Assembly (NCBI GenBank): GCA_017618275.1
Contig: JAFZUS010000197.1
Coordinates: forward strand, 1 to 38,380
Reading direction: 5' to 3'
DNA length: 38,380 bases
From: Prevotella sp.
GTDB taxonomy: Bacteria > Bacteroidota > Bacteroidia > Bacteroidales > Bacteroidaceae
Shown here: one piece after another, positions 3,864-37,911 of the stretch
How the letters are laid out: every line of letters begins with the position of its first letter
Numbering within the stretch: the stretch's first letter is position 1
The notes under the pieces: generated by a model
Told to the model about the DNA's origin: nothing
Databases searched by the model: none
Seen by the model: the letters and a program-made list of their open reading frames with translations, nothing else
Translations under genes and position numbers: made by a program

Positions 3864-5355
3864 CCGCCATCTTCGTTGGTGTCCGCTCGTCTCCGTTGAT
3901 ACGCTTTGCCAGTTTACTGGCATCAGTATCGACAGGACGGGAGGTAAAATCGGGGGTGTTATAGGAATATAACAGCCGACGGTAGAACTGCTTGGGATCC
4001 CGCTGCGGCAGGAGGAAGGGCTTCGTAGCCTTACCCTGCCTGTCGAAAGCGGCCAGATAGACCTGCGTGTAAAGGCCATTCTCCCGACGACTGGTAAAAA
4101 GAAACCAACGACTATTTGCACTCCAATTATGGAAACTCTCTGCCCTGTCGCTGTTTACCTCTGTCATCGGACGTGTCTCACCCGTCTCAAGGTCTAGCAG
4201 CCAGAGGTCGGCCTCAGGATGCCAGATGGTAAAGTAACCGTAGTCCGTCTGGGTGTACATCAGATAGCGTCCGTCGTAAGAAGGACGTGGCCACGAAACA
4301 CTCTTGCCCGTCTCACGGGCATTGATAAGGGTATCCACCTGTTCTCCGATCCGACCCGTCTTCTCATCGAAACTGACCCGGCAGAGACTGTATTTCTCCT
4401 GATCGTAGTCGGTGGGGTATACCTGTCTCAAGGCTGTCGTGAAGTAGAGCCACTGGCCGTCGGACGAGAACGCTGGCGTATTCTCCGCCCAGTATTTCTT
4501 CATGATCAGTGTGTCACGGAGGATGGTATGGGTCTCGGTGTCATAGACAAACACATCCGACGAGGAGTCATAGACCTCGATGCGCTTGTTCTTCATGTTC
4601 GTGTGGAACATCTGCGAGGTCTTGTTGGTGGAAAAGGCACAGTAACGGCCTCCTGGGTGCCAATAGGGATAGACCATCGAGCCACGTATGGAGTCATTCT
4701 TCGCCTGCAACAGTTCCAACTTCTCCCCTTCTCCCCTTCTCACCTTCTCACTCCCTATTACCGTTGCCCCGTGGTCGCCACGCACATGGAACAGATACTG
4801 GTCCGGATTCGTACGGTTGGCGGTATGACAGTTCACGCACTGGTTCGGCGTCCGTGTGTTCTGCAACAGTTCCGTCTCGTCGAAGTTACTGAGGTCGCGC
4901 TGGTAGAGCCCCATCTGACTATACATCTCGTAACTGGGCGGGATGCGACGGTAGGTGATGCCCCACGCCTCCAACGGGTCTGCGCTGACATCCATAGAAA
5001 AATCCTTGTATTGTATCCACTGTCCGTCCTTCCTGGCACAGACGGTAAAGGTCAAGGTGGCGCCCTTGTTTTGCTCCAACAACTGATGCCATGCGTCGAT
5101 GTCGAAGTCGGCTAATGCACCATTGGCATGGATGCTGCCTCCCTTTGTACCCTTCACCTCCACATCAATTGTTTCAAAGGCTTCATCAGCCATCGCAAAG
5201 TTCAACGGGGCAATGCCGACGGGTATCGTCACACCCACATAATCGGGATAGATCTCCGGCAGGGCATCCACATTGTTGACATCCGTCGGCTTCGAACTAC
5301 AAGCCGCCAGAATCCATCCCACAGTCAATATGATAATGTAATCAACATTTCTCAT
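3853..5355 (-). CDS. TolB-like beta-propeller lipoprotein with a CxxCH motif
   Basis: Putative periplasm-facing lipoprotein of 500 residues; function unknown. The N-terminus has a lipobox ending LAAC (C19). Residues 30-130 form a beta-rich domain. At 173-177 there is a single CVNCH motif, the signature for covalent heme c attachment. From about 220 to 470 come repeated W/F-S-x-DG-x-x-LYF-type strands of PD40/TolB propeller blades (for example AFSSDGQWLYFT and SYDGRYLMYTQ). It sits between a membrane protein gene and the HTCS gene on the same strand with short gaps, so the three are probably co-transcribed. An 8-bp simple repeat at 4721-4752 encodes a charged stretch (KVRRGEGEK) just after the CxxCH region. 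Both start and stop codons lie within 7-bp repeat arrays. A role in sensing or in envelope redox chemistry is only a guess; the CxxCH might also bind a metal or be structural. Confidence 0.85.
   Translation of the reverse strand: MRNVDYIIILTVGWILAACSSKPTDVNNVDALPEIYPDYVGVTIPVGIAPLNFAMADEAFETIDVEVKGTKGGSIHANGALADFDIDAWHQLLEQNKGATLTFTVCARKDGQWIQYKDFSMDVSADPLEAWGITYRRIPPSYEMYSQMGLYQRDLSNFDETELLQNTRTPNQCVNCHTANRTNPDQYLFHVRGDHGATVIGSEKVRRGEGEKLELLQAKNDSIRGSMVYPYWHPGGRYCAFSTNKTSQMFHTNMKNKRIEVYDSSSDVFVYDTETHTILRDTLIMKKYWAENTPAFSSDGQWLYFTTALRQVYPTDYDQEKYSLCRVSFDEKTGRIGEQVDTLINARETGKSVSWPRPSYDGRYLMYTQTDYGYFTIWHPEADLWLLDLETGETRPMTEVNSDRAESFHNWSANSRWFLFTSRRENGLYTQVYLAAFDRQGKATKPFLLPQRDPKQFYRRLLYSYNTPDFTSRPVDTDASKLAKRINGDERTPTKMAVRN
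4721..4752. repeat. 8-bp tandem repeat inside the TolB-like gene
   Basis: Four 8-bp units, TTCTCCCC twice, TTCTCACC and TTCTCACT, lie in frame in the TolB-like gene. They encode a charged segment that interrupts the propeller sequence between VIGS and LELLQ. It looks like a simple-sequence expansion or insertion tolerated in a loop. Confidence 0.75.
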
Positions 5356-5379
5356 TCCTCATTTCTCATTCTTCATTTA
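5345..5379. repeat. 7-bp tandem array (TCATTCC type) between two genes
   Basis: Five consecutive 7-bp units (ACATTTC, TCATTCC, TCATTTC, TCATTCT, TCATTTA) span exactly the junction between the membrane protein gene and the TolB-like gene. The array includes the stop codon of the former (5377-5379) and the ATG of the latter (5353-5355). Confidence 0.8.
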
Positions 5380-6540
5380 AAAAAAGAACATATCATTGCC
5401 ATTGTCATACACATCCTTTAAACGTTGATACAACGGATAATTTCCTATTTGCTCCGGATGTTCTACCAGCAGACTCATCTTCTGAGCCCAGCCACGATAG
5501 AAGGTGGTCTCCTCCAAGATGGCGATATACTTCCGCGCCACATCATACTGGCCCGTAATGATGTTCGTCTCCACCAGACGATGCAAGGCTCGCGCACTCT
5601 TATTATAATTAGGTATAGCCTCCATTGCCTCGAAAGCCGAACGCTGTGATATATTCACCATACTAATCGGCAGACTGACCTCACTCATCAGAAAGGCCGA
5701 CGACACGCTCTTCAACGTCTGGTTAGAGAGGTCTAGTCCACTCATCAACTCCTGCTGACTGATACGCTGCTGGCTCCAGAGAGCCACGAGCACGGCATTA
5801 CGGATAGCCAGTGACTCCGTCGGATTCTTTTCGTATCTGTCCGTCATCGCTTTCCATTGCTTCCGCCGCATCAGCACGTCGTATGTCATCTCTTCATATG
5901 AGCCGACCTTGTCGCCTTCCCAGTAATAGTCGATGCCACGTGCGACCTGACGCAAGGGATAGGGGGTCAACCAGGCACTGCCCACGATACAGAAAGCAAG
6001 GAGCAGAACGGCAGGAACAAACAGAACTGCCAACAACACGATGGCAGGACCTAACAGCCAATAACCTACAGGCGCCATTACGCAGACCATTGTCCGACGG
6101 GCTTTCCTTGTTTTCGGAAGCAGGTTCATCAGGCCCAACGTCAGCACGACAGCCACAATCGGTGTCATCGGAATATTAGGAACGCACGCCAGATACCATA
6201 GAATACACGAGGGCACAAAACTTAACAGACAATACTTCTTATTCCGGATGAGCCTCCATGTCAACTGTTGGGCTGCGACGAACAGCGCCACATACCAGAG
6301 CGCCCCATAGACAGGATTCAGGAAAAACTGCACAACAAACTCGCCTAGGTATTGTGCCAGTCCTCCAGGCACGGCAAGACGCTCCCAAAGGTAGTCCGTA
6401 TTCCACAGGAACAACTGCATCTGTTCCCGTGCCATCATCAGATGGGGCATCAAGAACAACCAGAAGCAAAACACGGCCACGCCAAACACAGCCGTCAGCA
6501 TCCACCACCTATGAGCATTGATGATTGTTGTTAGTTTCAT
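5377..6540 (-). CDS. Polytopic inner-membrane protein with helical C-terminal domain (DUF6057-like)
   Basis: 387 residues. The first half is hydrophobic with about six predicted membrane spans (near 16-36, 76-95, 103-120, 122-140, 150-170 and 170-190). The second half (about 200-387) is soluble and alpha-helical, with TPR-like pairs such as NKSARALHRLVETNIITGQY. I recall a Bacteroidota family (DUF6057) with this layout, but I could not verify the match, and remembered members may be longer. The gene is first in the minus-strand operon with the TolB-like lipoprotein and the HTCS, downstream of a clear -7 box at 6559-6567. Co-transcription with the HTCS suggests a link to polysaccharide sensing or cell state, but nothing in the sequence identifies a reaction. 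Confidence 0.8.
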   Translation of the reverse strand: MKLTTIINAHRWWMLTAVFGVAVFCFWLFLMPHLMMAREQMQLFLWNTDYLWERLAVPGGLAQYLGEFVVQFFLNPVYGALWYVALFVAAQQLTWRLIRNKKYCLLSFVPSCILWYLACVPNIPMTPIVAVVLTLGLMNLLPKTRKARRTMVCVMAPVGYWLLGPAIVLLAVLFVPAVLLLAFCIVGSAWLTPYPLRQVARGIDYYWEGDKVGSYEEMTYDVLMRRKQWKAMTDRYEKNPTESLAIRNAVLVALWSQQRISQQELMSGLDLSNQTLKSVSSAFLMSEVSLPISMVNISQRSAFEAMEAIPNYNKSARALHRLVETNIITGQYDVARKYIAILEETTFYRGWAQKMSLLVEHPEQIGNYPLYQRLKDVYDNGNDMFFF

Positions 6541-14536: not shown

Positions 14537-16006
14537 ATGAAAAGACTATATAGCATCCTTGCGGCTATGACGCTTGCTACAGCCGCCAGCGCGCAGATTG
14601 GCGCACCCTTTATCCACGACCCCTCGACCATCGCCGAGTGCGAGGGCAAATACTATACTTTCGGCACCGGTGGCGGTGGCCTGATCTCTGAGGACGGCTG
14701 GACTTGGAACAGCGGTGCAGAGCGCCCCGGAGGCGGTGCAGCCCCCGATGTGATCAAGATCGGCGACCGTTACCTCTGCATCTACGGTGCAACGGGTGGT
14801 GGTCTCGGAGGCGGTCACGCAGGCCGTATCCTCACCATGTGGAACAAGACCCTCGACCCAAAGTCACCCGACTTCAAATGGTCTGAGGCTGTAGAGGTCT
14901 GCTTCTCCGACGGTATGGAGGATCAGGACGCCATCGACCCGGGTATCATGCTCGACCCCTCCACAGGTCGTCTGTGGGTCAGTTACGGCACCTATTTCGG
15001 TACTATCCGTCTGATTGAGTTGGATCCGACAACCGGTTTCCGTAAGAGTGGCAACGTAGAGAAGGACATCGCCATCGACTGTGAGGCCTCCGACCTCATC
15101 TGTCGCAATGGCTGGTATTACCTGCTCGGCACCCACGGCACCTGCTGCGACGGTGTTAACTCTACCTATAATATCGTAGTAGGCCGTTCCAAGAGCCCCG
15201 AGGGTCCGTATATCGACAACGTAGGCCGTGACATGTACCATGGTGGCGGTAGGATGGTGGTAGCCGCTGGCGACCGCAAGACGGGTGCCGGACACTTCGG
15301 ACGCACCATTATCGACGAAGGCGTAGAGGTGGCATCATTCCACTGGGAGGCCGACTTCGACATGGGTGGCCGCTCCACACTGGCTATCCGTCCCCTGCTC
15401 TGGAAGAACGACTGGCCCTATTGTGGCGAGCAGTTCAAGGGCGGTACCTTCGAGATTGAGTCAGAGCGTCGTGGCTATGCCCTCGAACTGACGGTTGACT
15501 TCGTCCGCATGAATGTGGCCCGTGCCGGTGGTTTTGGTGGCTTCGGTGGTGGCAGACCCCAGCAGAACGCTGCTCCCCCACAGCCCGTGGCTAACCAGAC
15601 ATTGGATCAGGTCATCGGCACATGGCCGAAGGGTGACATCCCCGCCCGCATCGGCGACTATATGTTCCGTCCCCACCAGCGTTGGACCGTCACACCTGTA
15701 GAGGGTAAGGGCGCCTACCTCGGCAATACCTATTTCAAGATCGTGATCGAAGGTACAGAGCGTGCCCTCGCCGCTACTGCCGACAAGGAAGTGATCACCG
15801 TTCCTGAGTATACTGGCGCTGACGAACAACTCTGGCGCATAGAGCAACTCACCGACGGCACCTTCCGCATCATGCCGAAGGTCATCCCTGGCCAAGAGGG
15901 TATCAACAAGGAGTTCTGCCTCTACTCTGCAGGCGACTCCACCCCCACCCTCGCCAAGTATGACTTCAGCAGCGACAACTCGAAGTGGAACTTCCGCAAT
16001 CACTAA
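14537..16006 (+). CDS. Secreted GH43 glycoside hydrolase with C-terminal ricin-like domain
   Basis: 489 residues with signal peptide 1-20 (ending SASAQ). The GH43 propeller covers about 21-330. Likely catalytic residues: base D28 (FIHDPS), modulator D134 (DAIDPGIM), acid E183 (DCEASDLI). The fold resembles the arabinanase/arabinofuranosidase branch of GH43, and in this setting arabinose side-chain removal or xylosidase activity is plausible. A Gly/Gln/Pro linker (FGGFGGGRPQQNAAPPQP, about 335-355) leads to a beta-trefoil-like C-terminal domain (about 375-489, EQLWRIEQLTDGTFRI) that may bind carbohydrate. The stop codon is immediately followed by the first unit of the CCTAGG array. Confidence 0.9.
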   Translation: MKRLYSILAAMTLATAASAQIGAPFIHDPSTIAECEGKYYTFGTGGGGLISEDGWTWNSGAERPGGGAAPDVIKIGDRYLCIYGATGGGLGGGHAGRILTMWNKTLDPKSPDFKWSEAVEVCFSDGMEDQDAIDPGIMLDPSTGRLWVSYGTYFGTIRLIELDPTTGFRKSGNVEKDIAIDCEASDLICRNGWYYLLGTHGTCCDGVNSTYNIVVGRSKSPEGPYIDNVGRDMYHGGGRMVVAAGDRKTGAGHFGRTIIDEGVEVASFHWEADFDMGGRSTLAIRPLLWKNDWPYCGEQFKGGTFEIESERRGYALELTVDFVRMNVARAGGFGGFGGGRPQQNAAPPQPVANQTLDQVIGTWPKGDIPARIGDYMFRPHQRWTVTPVEGKGAYLGNTYFKIVIEGTERALAATADKEVITVPEYTGADEQLWRIEQLTDGTFRIMPKVIPGQEGINKEFCLYSAGDSTPTLAKYDFSSDNSKWNFRNH

Positions 16007-16116
16007 TCCTAGGTGATCCTAGGCAGTCCTAGGGGATCCTAGGATTGCCTAGGGCCTCCTAGTTTTTCCTAGGTCTGCCTAGGATAGCCTAGAATAACCT
16101 AGGATAACCTAGAATC
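16007..16116. repeat. Left CCTAGG array: 11 units, exact 10-bp period
   Basis: Eleven consecutive 10-bp units, each with the palindromic core CCTAGG (or CCTAGA/CCTAGT) preceded by T, G or A and followed by three to four variable bases. CCT triplets fall at 16008, 16018, 16028 and so on to 16108 with no slip. The array starts right after the GH43 stop codon and ends 16 bp before the ATG of the four-helix-bundle gene. It shares a 20-bp stretch (cctaggattgcctagggcct) with the right array. Confidence 0.95.
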
Positions 16117-16132
16117 TCAAAAATCAATTATT

Positions 16133-16798
16133 ATGGAATCATACACAAAAGGTAAAATACTAAGAAAAGCCGTCGTTTGGAAAGACCTCTACATCTATCG
16201 CAAGAGCGATACCATCTATCAGTTGACAGTGGTGTTCTGCAAGCGTTTTCTCCCTCTTCATGGTGATCGCACCGTGGATCAAATGGTGCAAGCCGCACGC
16301 TCTGGCAAGCAAAACATCGTGGAAGGCAGCGAAGACGGGCAGACCAGTTCTGAGATGGAGATCAAACTGCTGAACGTGGCTCGGGGAAGTCTCCAAGAAC
16401 TGCGGGCCGATTATCAAGACTATCTAAACACCCATCACCTTTCGTTATGGGCAGCCGACAGCGAACGCCAACAGCGACTTCGTGATTTCTGCCACACGCA
16501 TAATGACTATGATACATACGCCCCGTTGGTATCAAAGATGAACGATGAAGAGATGGCTAACCTGCTACTCACCCTCTGCCACCAGACGGATAGGATGATG
16601 TGCGCCTATATCGAGAAATTGGAACAGCGATTTGTAAAGGAGGGTGGCATCAAGGAGCGCATGCACGCTGCACGCACAGGCTATCGCCAGCAGCAGGACA
16701 CCTATCTGCACTCCCTCGAAGCCGAGAACCAGCACCTAAAAGCCGAGAATGCTGAACTGAAGCGGAGGATAGAAGAACTAGAAGCAAGGAGGGGCTAG
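16133..16798 (+). CDS. Four-helix-bundle protein with C-terminal coiled coil, flanked by CCTAGG arrays
   Basis: 221 residues, no signal peptide. Residues about 20-155 match the four-helix-bundle family related to 23S rRNA intervening-sequence proteins and to the Avd accessory protein of diversity-generating retroelements: MVQAARSGKQNIVEG, then a GSLQELRADYQDYL helix. These bundles are basic and bind nucleic acid in characterised members. Residues about 180-220 form heptads (EAENQHLKAENAELKRRIEELEA), a coiled coil likely for oligomerisation; I recall a 'four helix bundle suffix' domain of this kind but could not check it. The TAG stop codon is itself part of the right repeat array. The gene and its arrays fit exactly between two convergent genes, which suggests one mobile unit. 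A role in binding or spreading the repeats is inference. Confidence 0.85.
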   Translation: MESYTKGKILRKAVVWKDLYIYRKSDTIYQLTVVFCKRFLPLHGDRTVDQMVQAARSGKQNIVEGSEDGQTSSEMEIKLLNVARGSLQELRADYQDYLNTHHLSLWAADSERQQRLRDFCHTHNDYDTYAPLVSKMNDEEMANLLLTLCHQTDRMMCAYIEKLEQRFVKEGGIKERMHAARTGYRQQQDTYLHSLEAENQHLKAENAELKRRIEELEARRG

Positions 16799-16910
16799 GA
16801 GACTAGGGAGGCTAGGCAGCGCTAGGCGATCCTAGGTGGTCCTAGGTGGTCCTAGGCGATCCTAGGTAGTCCTAGGTGAGCCTAGGAGAGCCTAGGATTG
16901 CCTAGGGCCT
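16794..16910. repeat. Right CCTAGG array: about 12 units, 10-bp period
   Basis: CTAGG cores begin at 16795, 16803 and 16812 (8- and 9-bp steps), then every 10 bp from 16812 to 16902. Most units read CCTAGG plus four variable bases. The array begins within the stop codon of the four-helix-bundle gene and ends against the stop codon (16909-16911) of the convergent protease gene. Confidence 0.95.
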
Positions 16911-18102
16911 ATTTCTGATTAAATTGCAGGGGCCAGAGGGCGCGGAGGGTGGTGAGGATGCCGATGGGCAGGCGGAGGGTGAATTCGTATTCCTGATCCT
17001 TCACCCAGCGGTAACTGTTGAACTGATCAAATGTGATGGGCTCGCCATCGACTTTCTCGATGACATAGTCGTGGCGGAAGCCAGCCTGCCAGGCCCTACC
17101 CTGCTCCATCACCATCCCAATCATCGCTTTCCCCTCTTTCTCGACGATGACGACATCCGGGCGGCGATTCGCCACAATACAAGATGTGAGCCCGTCGTAA
17201 GGCTGGAAAACCAATTGCTTGCGGAAAGGATCGATGATCATGGCACCGTATCGGAGCAAGGGAGCCCCAATATGCGAGCCTCCCTGAACCGTATTGCAGT
17301 GTACTTCCTCTAACTTAAAGCCACCCCATTTCAGGCTGTCGAGCGACAACAGCGTAATCTGATGCGAATGTTCGCTGCCGAAATGGCCTATGGCATGACT
17401 GCCGAAGGTGGTGCCCTCTATCTGGCTCTCCACAGAGGGAGCGGAGGCCTGCATCTGCACAAAACTCCTGCTGTTGATAGCATAGAGCAGCGGACTGCCT
17501 GAGTCGAAGAGCACCTCTTCTGTCGTGCCCTCAAACGGGGAGATATTGACATAAGGCACGTGCCACTTCAATCGATTTTTCAAAGCCTCGCCCGCAGCCC
17601 GTCGGAAATAGGCCTTTCGGTCAGTAAGGGTCATCTGCCTCGCCCTTGTGTCGATGCGCGCAGCCAGTCCGCGATGGAAGAGGGCAAAGCCGATAATGCC
17701 GTCCTCGCCCCTGCGCACCACGTTACGCCTCATCCGCTGCACCTTGAAACCGCTGATGGTCAGCGAGTCGAGGGTGATGGGAGGCAACTCCACCGTTGTC
17801 ACCTGACGACTCACGCCAATGGCATCCTCCGACTTGATGAATCCCAGTTCCTTAAGACCAGGCAACTCCACATCGTCGTAGATCACGCCCTGACTGGCAC
17901 CCGTGTCGAGTTTAAAGCGGTACTGCCTGCCGTTGATGGTGACGGGCAGATAGATTTGGTCGCGCTCCACCTCGATGGGCATTGTCATCACGAAGTTTTT
18001 CCGCGACAACAGAAAATCTGTGTCGTAACGCTTCATTTGCGCCTCGACACAGACACATATCATCAGCAATACTGCTGCGAAAAGAATTCTCTTACTCAGC
18101 AA
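16909..18102 (-). CDS. Secreted retropepsin-like aspartyl protease with PDZ domain
   Basis: 397 residues with an N-terminal signal peptide (about 1-21). There are two aspartyl-protease motifs, LDTGAS (D66) and LFDSGSP (D200), each heading a beta-rich lobe, so one chain may form the whole two-Asp active site. A PDZ domain is at about 305-385 (AGFRHDYVIEKVDGEPI). The role is probably envelope proteolysis; the substrate is unknown. No ATG precedes the signal peptide, and the best start is TTG at 18102, 6 bp after the upstream stop. Starting at a later ATG would remove the signal core. It follows the lipoprotein gene closely, so translational coupling may explain the weak start. Confidence 0.85.
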   Translation of the reverse strand: MLSKRILFAAVLLMICVCVEAQMKRYDTDFLLSRKNFVMTMPIEVERDQIYLPVTINGRQYRFKLDTGASQGVIYDDVELPGLKELGFIKSEDAIGVSRQVTTVELPPITLDSLTISGFKVQRMRRNVVRRGEDGIIGFALFHRGLAARIDTRARQMTLTDRKAYFRRAAGEALKNRLKWHVPYVNISPFEGTTEEVLFDSGSPLLYAINSRSFVQMQASAPSVESQIEGTTFGSHAIGHFGSEHSHQITLLSLDSLKWGGFKLEEVHCNTVQGGSHIGAPLLRYGAMIIDPFRKQLVFQPYDGLTSCIVANRRPDVVIVEKEGKAMIGMVMEQGRAWQAGFRHDYVIEKVDGEPITFDQFNSYRWVKDQEYEFTLRLPIGILTTLRALWPLQFNQK

Positions 18103-21938: not shown

Positions 21939-22415
21939 ATGAAAAAATTATTTTTTGTAGTTAGTATGATGCTGATGAGTGTTGCTACATTCGCTCAGCA
22001 GGGAACTTGTACCGCTGGTGCTCACGCTTCTTTCTTACTTGAGGACAACAAGAACATTGGTGTCGGCGCATTTGTTGGCTATGAACTAATCGACAACGTT
22101 CGTGGCGTTGCTGAGTTCGACTACTATTTCAAGAAGGATTATACTTCTGCTTGGGAGGTAGATCTCAATGCAGAGTATCTGTTCAGAGTGGCAGATGGCA
22201 AATTTACGATTTATCCTTTGGTAGGTGTTAATCTGTTCGGATATAAATGGGATGTCAGTGGTTACTCTGACAGTGACTCAAAACTGGGCCTGAACATCGG
22301 TGGCGGTGTTGAGTTTAAATTGACTCCGAGCCTGGCTCTGAAGGCTGAGTACAACTACAAGACTCAGTACGACGGCGGCAGTTTCCTGAAGGCTGGTGTT
22401 GTGATTCCGTTCTAA
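21939..22415 (+). CDS. Small outer-membrane beta-barrel protein, paralogue C
   Basis: 158 residues, signal peptide 1-19 (MKKLFFVVSMMLMSVATFA) then beta-barrel strands with the same landmarks as A and B (NVRGVAEFDYYFKKDYTSAWEVDLNAEYL, YPLVGVNLFG, NIGGGVEF) and a terminal AGVVIPF. It is divergent from paralogues A and B. The region from the FKKDY motif onward is closer to A (FFKKDYVSAWDVNLNAHYL) than to B. Function unknown. Confidence 0.88.
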   Translation: MKKLFFVVSMMLMSVATFAQQGTCTAGAHASFLLEDNKNIGVGAFVGYELIDNVRGVAEFDYYFKKDYTSAWEVDLNAEYLFRVADGKFTIYPLVGVNLFGYKWDVSGYSDSDSKLGLNIGGGVEFKLTPSLALKAEYNYKTQYDGGSFLKAGVVIPF

Positions 22416-22498
22416 TAACCCACGCTTATTGGGAAATAACCCTCCCTTATTTGAAAATAACCCTGCCTTATTGTGCAATAAGGCAGGGTTATTGTTTT
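22414..22498. terminator. Three 21-bp tandem repeats ending in a bidirectional terminator
   Basis: AATAACCC...CTTATT units start at 22414, 22435 and 22456, exactly 21 bp apart. The third forms a perfect 17-bp stem, AATAACCCTGCCTTATT (22456-22472), with its inverted copy (22477-22493), loop GTGC, followed by GTTTTG. It serves convergent paralogue C and GH3. The stop codon of paralogue C overlaps the first unit. Confidence 0.85.
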
Positions 22499-25345: not shown

Positions 25346-27856
25346 TCAATCGTTTGAAAGGTTACAAATGATAATATTTCCTGCAACAGTTTCAATATCA
25401 TATTCGTATACCTTCTGGACGGGAAGTATCTCAAAGTTAGCAAGTTCCGCAGACCTCAGCGGCTGCTGGATGTCAGCAGGACGGAGCAGGTCATTGGGAC
25501 ATTCACCCTGAGCAGGCTTCAGACCCTTACCCTTCAGGGGCACGTAGGAACGCAGGCGGAGCGTACCGCCGATCTTCGAACGGACGACAGCCTGCTGGAG
25601 TTTGCCCCCACTCCACTTCATATCCACCGTAAAGCCGCCACGGGCCTGCAAGCCCTTCACCTCGCCGTCGGTCCACACTTCAGGCAGGGCAGGCAACAGG
25701 TGGACGGCCCCGTCGTGACTCTGCAACAGCATCTCACAGACACCGGCGGCACAGCCGAAGTTACCATCGATCTGGAAAGGCGGGTGCGCATCGAAGAGGT
25801 TCGGATAGGTGCGTCCGTCAGGATGGGTGCGCATTGAGCGGTCGTCGGGCAACAGGTGCAGCATATTCTTGATGATCTTAAAGGCGTGGTTGCCGTCGAG
25901 CATACGGGCCCAGAAATTGATCTTCCAACCGAGGCTCCAGCCCGTCGCCATATCGCCACGCTGCTTCAACGTATTGGCAGCCGCCGTAAAGAGGTCGGGA
26001 TGCGAATAGGGAGATATCTGGTTGGAGGGATAGAGACCATAGAGATGGGAGACATGACGGTGCTCGTCCTTGGGGTCGTCGCCATCGATCATCCACTCCT
26101 GCAACTGACCATAGCGTCCGATCTGCATGGGAGGCAGACGGTCGAGTGCAGAGTTGAGAGTTGAGAGTTGAGAGTTATCTTTGCCGAGAATCTTGGCAGC
26201 AGCGATAGTTTGCGTGAGGACATCGAAGATGATCTGGTTGTCCATCGTAGAACCAGCCGTCACCGTGGTGCGCTTGCCCAACGGTCCGTGCTCTGGCGAG
26301 ACGGTAGGCACCGACACCAGCCAACCGGCGGCATTCTTCACCTCACCATTAGCCGGATAGGTCTGCATCCAGGCCACGAGGAAGTCGGCGGCTCCCTTCA
26401 TCACGGGATAGTACTCTTCCAAGAACTGTTTGTCGCCCGTGTAGAGATAGTGCTGCCAGAGATGGGTCGTCAGCCAGGCGCCGCCTGTGGGGAACATACC
26501 CCAGGTGGTGCCGTCGATAGGTCCTGCGACGCGCCAGAGGTCGGTATTGTGATGGGCCACCCAACCGGGACAGCCGTACATATCCTTCGCCGTGATAGCA
26601 CCCGTCTCACTCAGGTCGCGGATCATCGAGAAGAGGGGCTGCTGCGTCTCTGCGATATTTCCCACGAGGGCAGGCCAGTAGTTCATCTCGGCATTGATGT
26701 TGATGGTGTATTTCGAATCCCAAGGGGCATTGACCTGTGCATTCCAGACACCCTGCAGGTTGGCGGGTTGTCCACCGGGCTGCGACGAGGAGATGAGCAG
26801 GTAACGGCCATACTGCATCATGAGCGACACCATATCGAAATCGCTGGGGTCCTTCTCAAAGGCAGCGAGGCGCTGGTCAGTGGGAAGAGCAGCCTTCTCA
26901 TAGGATTGCCTAGGATCCCTAGGATTACCTAGTACAAGACTCACCCGATTATATTGCTCCTGGTATTTCTGGAGATGCGATTTCAGCAGTTGCTTGTAAC
27001 TCTTGCCTTGTAAGCCGTCTAATGTCTCATTGTTCTTCTTCACAGGATTACCGCTGACGTCGTGGTAGTTCACGAAGGTCGTGGCAGCGGTGATATAGAG
27101 GGTAGCCGTCGTGGCATTGGAGACGCTCCACGACTGGGCCTTGTTCTCCACCTTTCCATCGGCCTCGACCTTGACACGGCACTCAGCCTTCAGGCCGGCC
27201 TTGATGCCTTCATGATCAACGCCTTCGACAATAGCCGCCAGTTCTTTAACGGCACGGTGTTCCCGTTCTATCCAGTTGGTCGTCTCTGCCTTCAGCGGGG
27301 AATCGAAACTGACATCGAACGACAGGGCACCCTTCTTGCTTGCATTGATACGGACGACAATCACGTTGTCGGCCTGCGAGGCGAAGACGGTGCGCTCGTA
27401 CTTCACACCTTTATATATATAAGAGGTGGTGGCAAGGGCAGTGCCCAAATTCAGTTCACGATGATAGTCGCTGACATCCTCGTGCCCCAGTTTCAGTTTC
27501 ACACTACCTAAGGGCAGGTACTTCATGCCGTGAGGACCCTTAAAGAAGTACTTGTCGATGAGGGCGTGCGCCTGGTCTTCCTTGCCGTCGTAGATCAACT
27601 GGCGTACGTATGGCAGTTGTGCCTTCGCCTCGGGGTTGTTATTGTTGTGGGGCGAACCGCTCCAGAAGGTCTCCTCGTTGAGTTGGATCTCTTCGGTTTC
27701 CGTACCGCCATAGACCATCGCCCCGAGGTGGGAGTTACCGATGGGCAAGGCCTCCAACCACTGGGTAGCGGGCTTGGCATACCATAGTTTGTGCTGCTGT
27801 GCCGTTGCCGACAGCGTTGTCAGACAGACAGCCATTGTGATGAAAAACTTTCTCAT
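25346..27856 (-). CDS. GH95 alpha-L-galactosidase/alpha-L-fucosidase
   Basis: 836 residues, signal peptide 1-19 (ending ATAQ). GH95 signature order: N-terminal beta-sandwich (about 22-260, [14 protein letters not shown] and [11 protein letters not shown]); (alpha/alpha)6 barrel with [13 protein letters not shown], carrying the paired Asn that assist catalysis; [12 protein letters not shown] at the position of the catalytic acidic residue; and a [11 protein letters not shown] motif. Classical members are alpha-1,2-L-fucosidases, but a Bacteroides ovatus GH95 in a complex-xylan locus removes alpha-L-galactose, and with GH31 and feruloyl esterases nearby that is a good candidate activity. Two simple repeats lie in frame: a CCTAGG mini-array (about residues 306-319) and a 7-bp repeat (about 560-569). 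It begins 2 bp after the GH31 stop, so the two are co-expressed. Confidence 0.9.
26151..26177. repeat. 7-bp tandem repeat inside the GH95 gene
   Basis: Three full GAGTTGA units and one partial, encoding part of [11 protein letters not shown] between conserved GH95 motifs. In the coding orientation the repeat has no stop codon in the used frame. Confidence 0.8.
26898..26937. repeat. CCTAGG mini-array inside the GH95 gene
   Basis: Four CTAGG-like cores (TAGG/TAGT at 26901, 26911, 26920 and 26930) at 10, 9 and 10 bp, in frame, encoding about NPRDPRQS between the family-conserved NRVSLVLG and ALPTDQRL. The stretch ggattgcctagg is also found in both arrays around the four-helix-bundle gene. Confidence 0.85.
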
Positions 27857-32045: not shown

Positions 32046-33274
32046 CTATAGTCCTGAAACAACATGAATATCGTTGGTGTCAGTATCCTTTCCTAAGAGG
32101 AACTTGTCGATGAAGGCCTGTACCTCCGGGAACTGACTCTGAGGCAACTGACAGTGGCCATGACCTGCGACGATGCTCCATCCAAAGCGGTCGGCGATGC
32201 CGAAGGACTTCCAAACCTCCTTGGCAGCCTTTGCAGAGGCGACCATCGAACCGTCGGCCAGCCACTCGTAGTCAGGATTACCAAGCAATAACAGGGCGCG
32301 CGGACAAACCATCGTACAGAGTTCGTGCTGGTCGTAGGGCAGACGATAGACACTGTCGCCGTGGAAGTTCTCCTTCTGACTCTCCATGAACCAGTGGTAG
32401 TCGGTCTTATCAAGGTCCTCCAGATTCTTACCAGCCAATGTGGACTCGTGAGAGACACGCCAGGCCGCAGCACCACCGCCACCGGGTTCCTGAGCAATCG
32501 TCAGGGCGATACGCTCGTCAAAGGCACCACAATAGAGTGCCATCTTACCAGCATACGAACAGCCGGATACACCGATATGCTTCGTATCAATCTTCGTCAC
32601 CTCAGGACCTAACTGCTGCAGGCCGTCGATGAGACGACTCAGACCCCAGGCCCACTCACTGTAGGCACCATTGTCTTTCAACTCAGGATAGAGACGGTCG
32701 AAGTTGTGCTCACCACGTTCATGATGACGACCCATCTGTCCGTAGTCGTTCACCTGCTTCTCACGGAAGTTCATGATGGCGATGGGACGGTCCTCAAAGA
32801 GTTGACGGGGCAGGGCGAGCATGCTCGTGCCAATCATCAGGGCATAAGGAGCTTCGCCTACCTTCGGATAGGTAATGACCGACGATAATGTCAACGTCTC
32901 ACCATTCACGGTAACATCGACAATCAATGTGTCGCCACTCATCCGTGCCTTGACGGCACCTGGCTCAACAACGGGCTTCGTGCCTATGCCGTAGTGCTGT
33001 ATCTGATGGGCAATCTCACTGCGACGACGCGACCAGTCCTTGAAAGACTTTACCTTTCCCTTGCCGTTACTCCAGGCAAAGGGATCGGGCAACTCACGGA
33101 TGACAGGCAGTTTATCCACCGTCGGCATCACAGGTGCAGCGAATTTGCTGCCCGTGTTCTCAACCTCATATACCAAGGGAACACCACCCTTTGTCTTTTT
33201 CTGTGCGTCTGCCGGGCAGACGACACAGAACAAAGCCAAAGCGATAAGAGTATTTCTTACTATAGAAGTAATCA

Positions 33275-33275
<1 letters not shown>
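32046..33275 (-). CDS. CE15 glucuronoyl esterase
   Basis: Cleaves the ester between 4-O-methyl-glucuronate on xylan and lignin alcohols. 409 residues from ATG 33275, which begins a signal peptide ending ADAQ; a further upstream reading adds only residues encoded by a repeat array and the neighbouring gene. The alpha/beta-hydrolase carries GVSGCSYAGK with the nucleophile Ser of the CE15 GCS-x-x-GK motif, then QEPGGGG, the family's oxyanion and substrate region, and GHGHCQLP with the catalytic His. The Tyr after the Ser replaces the Arg usual in the fungal and many bacterial GCSRxGK motifs. It is downstream of the GH10-CE1 genes, 23 bp apart. Confidence 0.9.

Positions 33276-35536
<2,261 letters not shown>

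Positions 35537-35558: not shown

Positions 35559-37911
<2,353 letters not shown>

Follow-up and report, generated by a model that had tools for sequence, protein, structure and literature searches.

A four-helix-bundle gene between CCTAGG arrays points to a possible single gene family behind puzzling bacterial repeats

Why does the gene for a small four-helix-bundle protein stand in a Prevotella genome between two tandem arrays of the same short word, and do gene and word belong together? The locus lies on contig JAFZUS010000197.1 (assembly GCA_017618275.1), in a stretch of 38,380 nucleotides that was analysed as a whole and that we call the window. Here, we describe the module, the copies of its word elsewhere in the genome, its relatives in the genus and in other phyla, and the published repeats that it resembles. 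The observation extends beyond the single module, to dispersed arrays and to relatives with words of their own, which makes one gene family the suspected owner of a class of repeats that has been a puzzle in bacteria. Many bacterial genomes have an excess of heptamers and other tandem repeats with short units, and the passages of PMC4692102 and PMC4679880 drawn on here treat them as orphans.

The locus comprises the following features:

14537-16006, plus strand: upstream neighbour outside the element, a gene for a GH43 family protein with a lectin-like domain (open reading frames, Pfam)
16007-16115, no strand assigned: left array of 11 CCTAGG-N4 units (sequence, tandem-repeat and motif counts)
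16133-16798, plus strand: gene for a TIGR04258 four-helix-bundle suffix protein of 221 aa (profile searches)
16793-16906, no strand assigned: right array of about 12 units (sequence, tandem-repeat and motif counts)
16909-18102, minus strand: convergent neighbour outside the element, a gene for an aspartyl-protease domain protein (open reading frames, Pfam)

A first-pass annotation, made from the sequence alone, had described 11 units at an exact 10-bp period on the left, about 12 on the right with 10 of them exact, a shared 20-bp stretch, and a module that fills the gap between its neighbours. Motif positions confirm the left array (11 units in exact 10-bp steps, 16008-16113), in which 8 units are exact CCTAGG and whose polarity reads FFFR, exact neighbours sharing one direction and then flipping. 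The right array does hold about 12 CTAG-bearing units, but the number of exact ones has to be lowered to 8, which follow each other in exact 10-bp steps from 16831 to 16906. The shared stretch is present (16038-16057 equals 16891-16910), and the gap is indeed filled: the TAA stop codon of the GH43 gene occupies 16004-16006 and the left array begins at the next base, and the right array begins within the TAG stop of the window gene itself and reaches the convergent gene, whose own TAG falls within the degenerate final unit. The window contains 19 copies of CCTAGG, where 6.7 would be expected and none of 100 shuffles gives more than 14. The two ends of the element are complementary in a trivial sense, CCTAGG being its own complement.

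The window protein consists of an S23/IVS-like N-terminal part (residues 17-93), a suffix domain (138-186) and a coiled-coil-like C-terminus. Its score against TIGR04258 (79.4 bits, cut-off 40) places it in that family; it also passes TIGR02436 (34.7 bits, cut-off 24) and falls below the cut-off of PF05635, the S23/IVS domain (31.9 bits against 33.8). The N-terminal part of the suffix proteins matches an S23 profile with 96.9% probability, and one S23 protein matches the model of Avd, from diversity-generating retroelements, at 28.5 bits (E 1.4e-6), well under that model's cut-off of 80. These scores uphold the earlier view of the protein as S23/IVS-like and distantly related to Avd. Neither a reverse transcriptase nor a template repeat was noticed next to the genes that were read. 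Pfam and NCBIfam scans found no catalytic, nuclease, recombinase or transposase domain in the window protein, and neither it nor P0001 matched any PADLOC family (0 each), so that neither is placed among known or candidate anti-phage defence genes. A known RNA family was also considered and rejected, all 12 Rfam matches scoring under the gathering threshold.

The word is not confined to the module. Three consecutive units, (CCTAGGN4)x3, give 51 forward matches in the genome (3.6 Mb); the module accounts for 9 and 42 lie outside it, and the reversed pattern gives 0. In 20 stretches taken from the matches listed we counted 26 CCTAGG arrays, 3 in the window and 23 elsewhere, and by a rechecked tally 24 of the 26 have a stop codon within 10 bp, often as the TAG inside CCTAGG; the exceptions are an array 250 bp away from one (L065) and the array at 26899 in the window, which lies inside a reading frame. 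The 25 intergenic arrays sit between co-oriented genes (21) or convergent genes (4). Pfam places among their neighbours a phosphoribosyltransferase-adenylate kinase fusion, an ObgE-like GTPase, MurD- and FtsW-like proteins, exonuclease VII large subunit, a lyase and arginyl-tRNA synthetase.

Such positions next to stop codons, some of them in core operons (adk-obgE and murD-ftsW type pairs), lend something to an explanation by host regulation, according to which the protein regulates by binding nucleic acid, with the intercistronic arrays as its operators or as protectors of mRNA 3' ends. A proposal of translational control for TAACTGA repeats, in the part of PMC4679880 used here, points the same way. 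We nevertheless think host regulation distinctly unlikely. At the adk-obgE junction a CCTAGG array occurs in only 3 of 29 measured cases (the genome of the window, G013 and G027), the other 26 having gaps of -11 to 299 bp filled with other sequence (13 bp in G020, for example). The gene family is patchy, with TIGR04258 present in 107 of 200 genomes of the genus (104 above the cut-off). Among co-oriented arrays outside the window a hand tally finds the units running with transcription in 11, against it in 8 and mixed in 1, unlike a sense-strand RNA site. The flush fit to stop codons, in turn, may simply reflect an array that takes up all the space before the next gene's leader.

In other species the adk-obgE junction, viewed by eye, carries unrelated inverted repeats such as CCCCTCC..GGAGGGG (L111, L113, L124, L119 and others), and judging from these sequences it seems to be a hot spot for several kinds of hairpin.

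The units have a direction. Between exact CCTAGG neighbours, 66 of 77 four-base spacers are of the type C/T/G-N-N-T or of its complement, A-N-N-A/G/C (2000 shuffles: mean 38.5, maximum 54), and the recognised word would therefore be longer than the palindrome CCTAGG. The spacers also bear on a second alternative, in which arrays arise first through replication slippage, S23-type genes later find safe landing sites in them or spread by recombination between dispersed arrays, and the protein does not read the word. Neighbouring spacers in the CCTAGG arrays, which were chosen for exact cores, mostly differ from one another, unlike the product of recent slippage. The three adk-obgE arrays differ in length and spacers between near relatives (the adk end of G013 is 94% identical), and the difference in length is a point for arrays coming first.

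If gene and word belong together, they should be found together. A homologue at least 70% identical to the window protein occurs in 13 of 200 genomes, counting a split gene (G055) and a stop-bearing one (G178). Triple CCTAGG arrays are present in 12 of these 13 genomes, compared with 13 of the 187 others (Fisher p = 1e-11), and a TIGR04258 gene of any kind is found in 21 of the 25 genomes with CCTAGG arrays as against 86 of the remaining 175. One genome counted among the 12 (G063) has, at its own gene, arrays that read CCTAC/CCTAT (L081), and one of the 13 others (G013) has CCTAGG arrays but no TIGR04258 gene that could be found in its 84% complete assembly. The exception among the close homologues is G178, with CATAGG arrays beside the gene, the left on one strand and the right on the other; the word can thus change at the gene. 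The dispersal predicted for CATAGG was not seen: all 10 matches in G178 lie beside the gene, and the counts in three further genomes are 1, 3 and 1.

Across 48 array-bearing genes, protein identity and word similarity correlate with r = 0.61, which none of 1000 permutations reaches in a test that leaves shared genome ancestry in; mean word similarity rises from 0.05 at 30-40% protein identity to 0.48 at 70-90%. That the word tracks the protein sequence, and that one genome can hold several genes, each in its own word, both weigh against arrays coming first. The 13 of 187 genomes that have CCTAGG arrays and no homologue of at least 70% identity speak for it, as do the pure heptamer runs among the GGGRAYC matches listed (see below), which resemble products of slippage. 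Taken together, we judge an origin of the arrays ahead of the genes unlikely.

The genome of the window has three TIGR04258 genes. The one on contig C64 adjoins a 9-bp TCCGG word, itself dispersed (11 matches, 2 of them at the gene; reversed pattern 0), and at the one on C129 (L002) neither a reading of the flanks nor a periodicity scan found an array. We examined 72 TIGR04258 genes of the genus, a non-random draw of the best-scoring ones listed (3 from this genome, 29 given as loci and 40 fetched). With 300-bp flanks, and a stretch of 45 bp with at least 65% self-match as the criterion, 72 of the 144 flanks are periodic (control pieces taken at a greater distance: 3 of 134; after dinucleotide shuffling: 0 of 144), and 69 of the 72 have lags of 9, 10, 18, 20 or 22. 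Restricted to lags 7-11, the criterion finds an array at 48 of the 72 genes, with a period of 9 (36 genes), 10 (10), 11 (1) or 7 (1), and none at the other 24, one of this genome's three among them. Co-occurrence of gene and array, as suggested from the module, therefore stands for close homologues and does not hold for every family member. The outcomes named in the first-pass annotation as refuting it, arrays widespread with no tie to the gene family or the gene consistently without arrays, did not occur in that form. The words, read by eye, include CCTAGG, CATAGG, CTATAG, ACTAGT, GCTAGC, TCCGGA, GTCGGAC, TGGGAG, AATAGGCC and TAATCAGA.

Two array-less genes of the family, L002 and L090, each lie directly upstream of what appears to be one conserved gene, and from this position are perhaps resident, domesticated copies. 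Two other loci, L043 and L046, are much alike by eye, with 3' arrays that differ in length and spacers, i.e. with fast turnover of units.

The gene changes its site between relatives. When the window gene was compared with 11 loci of its clade (69-81% identity), no homologous reading frame was found in flanks of about 1 to 1.4 kb; a weak flanking-frame match of 30-37% is common to three of the clade loci (L023, L032 and L033). Restriction-modification genes lie beside at least 7 of the 72 TIGR04258 genes (L073, L074, L085, L086, L089, L096 and L102), with specificity, methylase or restriction-type domains among the neighbours in all seven loci tested. In a wider sample of the phylum the suffix family occurs in 50 of 395 genomes, 37 of the 50 belonging to one family (f42).

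The short S23-type relatives (TIGR02436), which the genome also carries, repeat the arrangement with different words. Besides the suffix genes there are six, one of them at a contig end (L142), and all five readable ones sit, by eye, between inverted 7-bp arrays, in TGCACAA, AGGTGAG, GAGTGTA, GGAGTGA and AATTAGN. The last word, AATTAGN/TAATTNC, is dispersed, with 44 matches and 0 for the reversed control; three overlapping matches make up the window array at 35559-35594.

For a view across phyla we took one genome per species and, from at least 586 confirmed S23 candidates in many phyla, the best 80, of which 75 were usable and 5 had short flanks. Gene starts are approximate; L191, for instance, scored negative through a later ATG start though inverted units are visible there. 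Inverted complementarity of the two flanks (score of at least 12) was found at 43 of the 75 loci against 0 of 69 control pairs, and at 5 of 300 when flanks of different S23 loci were paired; direct similarity was found at 10 of 75 against 1 of 69. The excess of inverted over direct flanks is a further point against arrays that arise first by slippage. Where self-match reaches 70%, lags of 7, 14 or 21 lead in 17 of 23 flanks on the 5' side and 19 of 24 on the 3' side, and at 46 of the 55 loci where a neighbour was called on each side, the gene points the same way as both.

In the suffix genes of the genus the two flanks are alike directly at 28 of 72 loci, inversely at 18, and either way at 29, palindromic words counting twice (control pairs: direct 2 of 64, inverted 1 of 64). 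Inverted ends are therefore a feature of the S23 type and not a general one. The suffix loci of the phylum sample have short 9-bp arrays, and the comparison of flanks, which took in 27 of 29 loci, found inverted complementarity at 11 of 27 against 1 of 24 controls and direct likeness at 7 against 0; by our own count, just 7 of the 29 pass the periodicity threshold.

One argument made from the window module alone does not survive this comparison. The 10-bp spacing had been explained by sites one helical turn apart on one side of the DNA, and we reject helical phasing as its reason: relatives use words of 7, 8, 9 and 10 bp, so that B-DNA phase is not the rule, and the period follows the protein subfamily. 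The density of CTAG, usually rare in bacterial genomes, had been called striking; the tetramer is dispensable, and GTCGGAC, TGGGAG, TAATTNC or GGGAATC can stand in its place.

XCC0516-like S23 proteins are also found on plasmids, in 18 records of which 16 are cyanobacterial by name; 16 of the 18 were fetched (all except H4 and H16). Among the 15 cyanobacterial loci the flanks are complementary at 8 and directly alike at 2, and the rest fall below the score, some with short arrays visible. The words include GGGAGTA, GGGTGTA, GGGAACA, GGTGACA, GGGAAAA and AAAGCTA. By annotation, the gene has ribonucleotide reductase genes on its two sides in one setting, cas6 and cas4 in another (seen twice), and cas10 and a cmr3-family gene in a third.

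In Xanthomonas the word becomes recognizable from the literature. The XCC0516-like gene of X. vasicola (79% identity) lies between accB-like (biotin-carrier) and accC-like (biotin-carboxylase) genes and is preceded by GGGAATC-type units and followed by their complement. A Rhodanobacter locus (L193) has the same accB/accC-type site and GGGAATC-type units, and L192 is, judging by its sequence, probably at the same site as the X. vasicola gene, with GGGATTC units. In X. codiaei and Pseudoxanthomonas the gene stands between the genes for the small and large subunits of carbamoyl-phosphate synthase and has GGGGACC units. Triples of GGGRAYC number 50, 36, 56, 0, 17 and 57 in the genomes of L191, L249, L254, L192, L193 and L196 (control 0 each) and are thus present in five of the six genomes around XCC0516-like genes; in Pseudoxanthomonas the matches listed are mostly GGGGACC, the word of its own gene, and no X. 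vasicola words are among the matches listed.

Among 20 stretches, of which 9 were chosen for neighbouring GGGRAYC matches, 8 hold a G-rich array of at least three units followed, about 27 to 390 bp on, by its complement, and an inverted pair in the opposite order was seen in none of the 20. One of the eight pairs encloses an S23 gene (L271); the other seven have a gap of less than 200 bp, too short for that gene. By eye, an array appears to be translated at L271 and L274, as the tail of the S23 reading frame before the large-subunit gene and within the first part of a biosynthetic gene downstream.

PMC4692102, in the part available, is about the heptamers GGGAATC, from Xanthomonas, and GGGGA(C/T)T, from Nostoc; it finds them close to stop codons and sees no general link between them and mobile elements. 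PMC4679880 reports TAACTGA repeats of Beggiatoaceae and others, for which, in the passages at hand, a mechanism of horizontal transfer is not evident. Judged by its sequence in X. vasicola, the species examined here in place of X. campestris, the repeat of the Xanthomonas S23 locus is the published orphan heptamer GGGAATC. The portions of these two papers that we drew on name no S23/four-helix gene, 'four helix' and 'intervening' having 0 occurrences there, and none of the papers listed by searches of open-licence PubMed Central, apart from preprints, connects short-unit arrays with S23/four-helix genes across a whole genome.

A third alternative takes a DNA structure, G-quadruplex or cruciform, as the selected feature and the link to the gene as secondary, following what the part of PMC4692102 consulted puts forward for GGGAATC. 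G-rich words do lie beside some S23 genes and inverted pairs could form hairpins; on the other hand TAATTNC, CCTAGG, CTATAG and AAAGCTA have no G runs of the quadruplex kind and yet show the same arrangement. We regard a structural explanation as very improbable. The G-quadruplex was rejected as a general account, A/T-rich words taking the same arrangement.

How, then, should the element be classed? REP sequences are dispersed short extragenic repeats whose partner gene, the REP-associated tyrosine transposase (RAYT), is flanked by them. The flanking repeat of the window element is likewise dispersed, and the earlier remark that the layout recalls REP/RAYT with a different protein fits what we found: the window protein lacks the Y1/HUH transposase domain that defines the partner (Pfam, NCBIfam), the units are tandem and 7-10 bp long, and the gene sits at differing sites in relatives. 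MITEs are gene-less derivatives of a parent transposon, and the likeness to them lies in the inverted ends and in a gene-bearing copy accompanied by gene-less ones; unlike a MITE and its transposon, the element ends in tandem word arrays and has no transposase domain. The STRR of cyanobacteria are tandem repeats of the heptamer type. From these and similar heptamers the window array differs by its 10-bp unit, the S23 relatives having mostly 7, and the S23 arrays resemble the orphan heptamers (GGGAATC, GGGGA(C/T)T, TAACTGA) in being 7-bp, tandem, intergenic, dispersed and near gene ends. The Nostoc S23 words, e.g. GGGAGTA, are of the same kind as the published GGGGA(C/T)T but different from it.

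The rRNA intervening sequence, in the passages of PMC4990558 used here, has tandem heptamers in strain-variable number before its S23 reading frame and a terminal stem of 28 bp that RNase III cleaves; those passages do not mention dispersed solo arrays. S23 loci share with it an S23-family reading frame between complementary ends. The window element, unlike it, lies between GH43 and protease genes and not in 23S rRNA, and the suffix type is set apart by an additional domain and by units of 10 bp. Because the defining enzyme of the one and the defining site of the other are both missing, we file the element under neither REP/RAYT nor rRNA intervening sequences; by analogy, it may be said to work like the former and look like the latter.

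We consider the pairing of the S23/four-helix superfamily with short-unit arrays established, though not for every member. On balance we lean towards the view that an S23/four-helix-bundle gene together with arrays of its own word forms a small, probably mobile element of an unnamed kind, that solo arrays and inverted pairs are its gene-less derivatives, and that the protein probably reads the word. Observation shows that genes and arrays are paired in many phyla, that word and protein are inherited together, that the S23 type has inverted polarity, that the word is dispersed, that arrays reside between genes (in this genome directly behind stop codons and mostly where the genes are co-oriented), and that related species have the gene at different sites. 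From sequence comparison, both recognition of the word by its protein and mobility of the whole are likely. The gene-less derivatives would stand to the gene-bearing copy as MITEs do to a transposon or REPs to a RAYT.

As to mechanism, the structure entries of two solved S23 relatives contain five chains each, a count that by itself does not prove a pentamer, and Avd is presumably a pentamer that contacts nucleic acid. We propose that the protein, probably a ring-shaped oligomer, recognizes one word per subunit, which would make the period depend on the subfamily; such a ring would account for words of 7-8 bp in the short S23 type and of mostly 9-10 bp in the longer suffix type. Recognition of the word would be needed to found or keep arrays, and intergenic gaps would be favoured because coding sequence seldom tolerates arrays. 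As the element has no known nuclease, recombinase or reverse transcriptase, growth and movement of the DNA could be left to host replication and repair, with template switching at words the likeliest route.

A more sweeping version, to which we attach only tentative weight and which we consider rather doubtful, makes the S23/four-helix superfamily the general partner of bacterial short-unit tandem arrays. The protein would form a ring on single-stranded DNA or RNA, one word per subunit, its geometry fixing the period at 7-10 nt; the protein would drive a nuclease-free spread of the word through annealing or template switching that it promotes at the words as the DNA replicates; and rRNA intervening sequences, cyanobacterial heptamers, Xanthomonas GGGAATC and CCTAGG would be one class.

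The pairing of repeat and gene offers a testable handle, each gene predicting a word and each word its gene. It would account for the presence of S23 genes in rRNA as well as in operons, and mobile elements with no known enzyme for cutting DNA would become a class of their own. Should the protein indeed read one word per subunit, there are many natural protein-word pairs from which a recognition code could be learned.

The window itself holds further arrays. The periodicity threshold is passed by 6 of its 39 gene flanks, 3 belonging to the module and 3 found among the 36 others. The additional arrays are:

5346-5378, plus strand: 7-bp CATTTCT/CATTCCT array with a minus-strand gene on each side, located where the gene at 5377-6540 has its stop codon
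26899-26933, no strand assigned: degenerate CCTAGG array of 4 units, in frame within an 836-aa open reading frame (25346-27856, minus strand)
33268-33303, plus strand: degenerate TAATTCC-type array, also with minus-strand genes on both sides, located where the gene at 33299-35518 has its stop codon
35559-35594, plus strand: solo 7-bp TAATTNC array, at the stop codon of the minus-strand gene at 35590-37893

The word of the solo array at 35559-35594 is that found beside the S23 gene on contig C56 of the same genome (L143). The minus-strand reading frame at 25346-27856 contains, besides its CCTAGG array, a 7-bp array at 26144-26176, and both are translated as short peptide inserts. Between two convergent reading frames, at 22414-22481, lies a 21-bp repeat (AATAACCCTCCCTTATTGGGA) in 3.2 copies, terminator-like in look.
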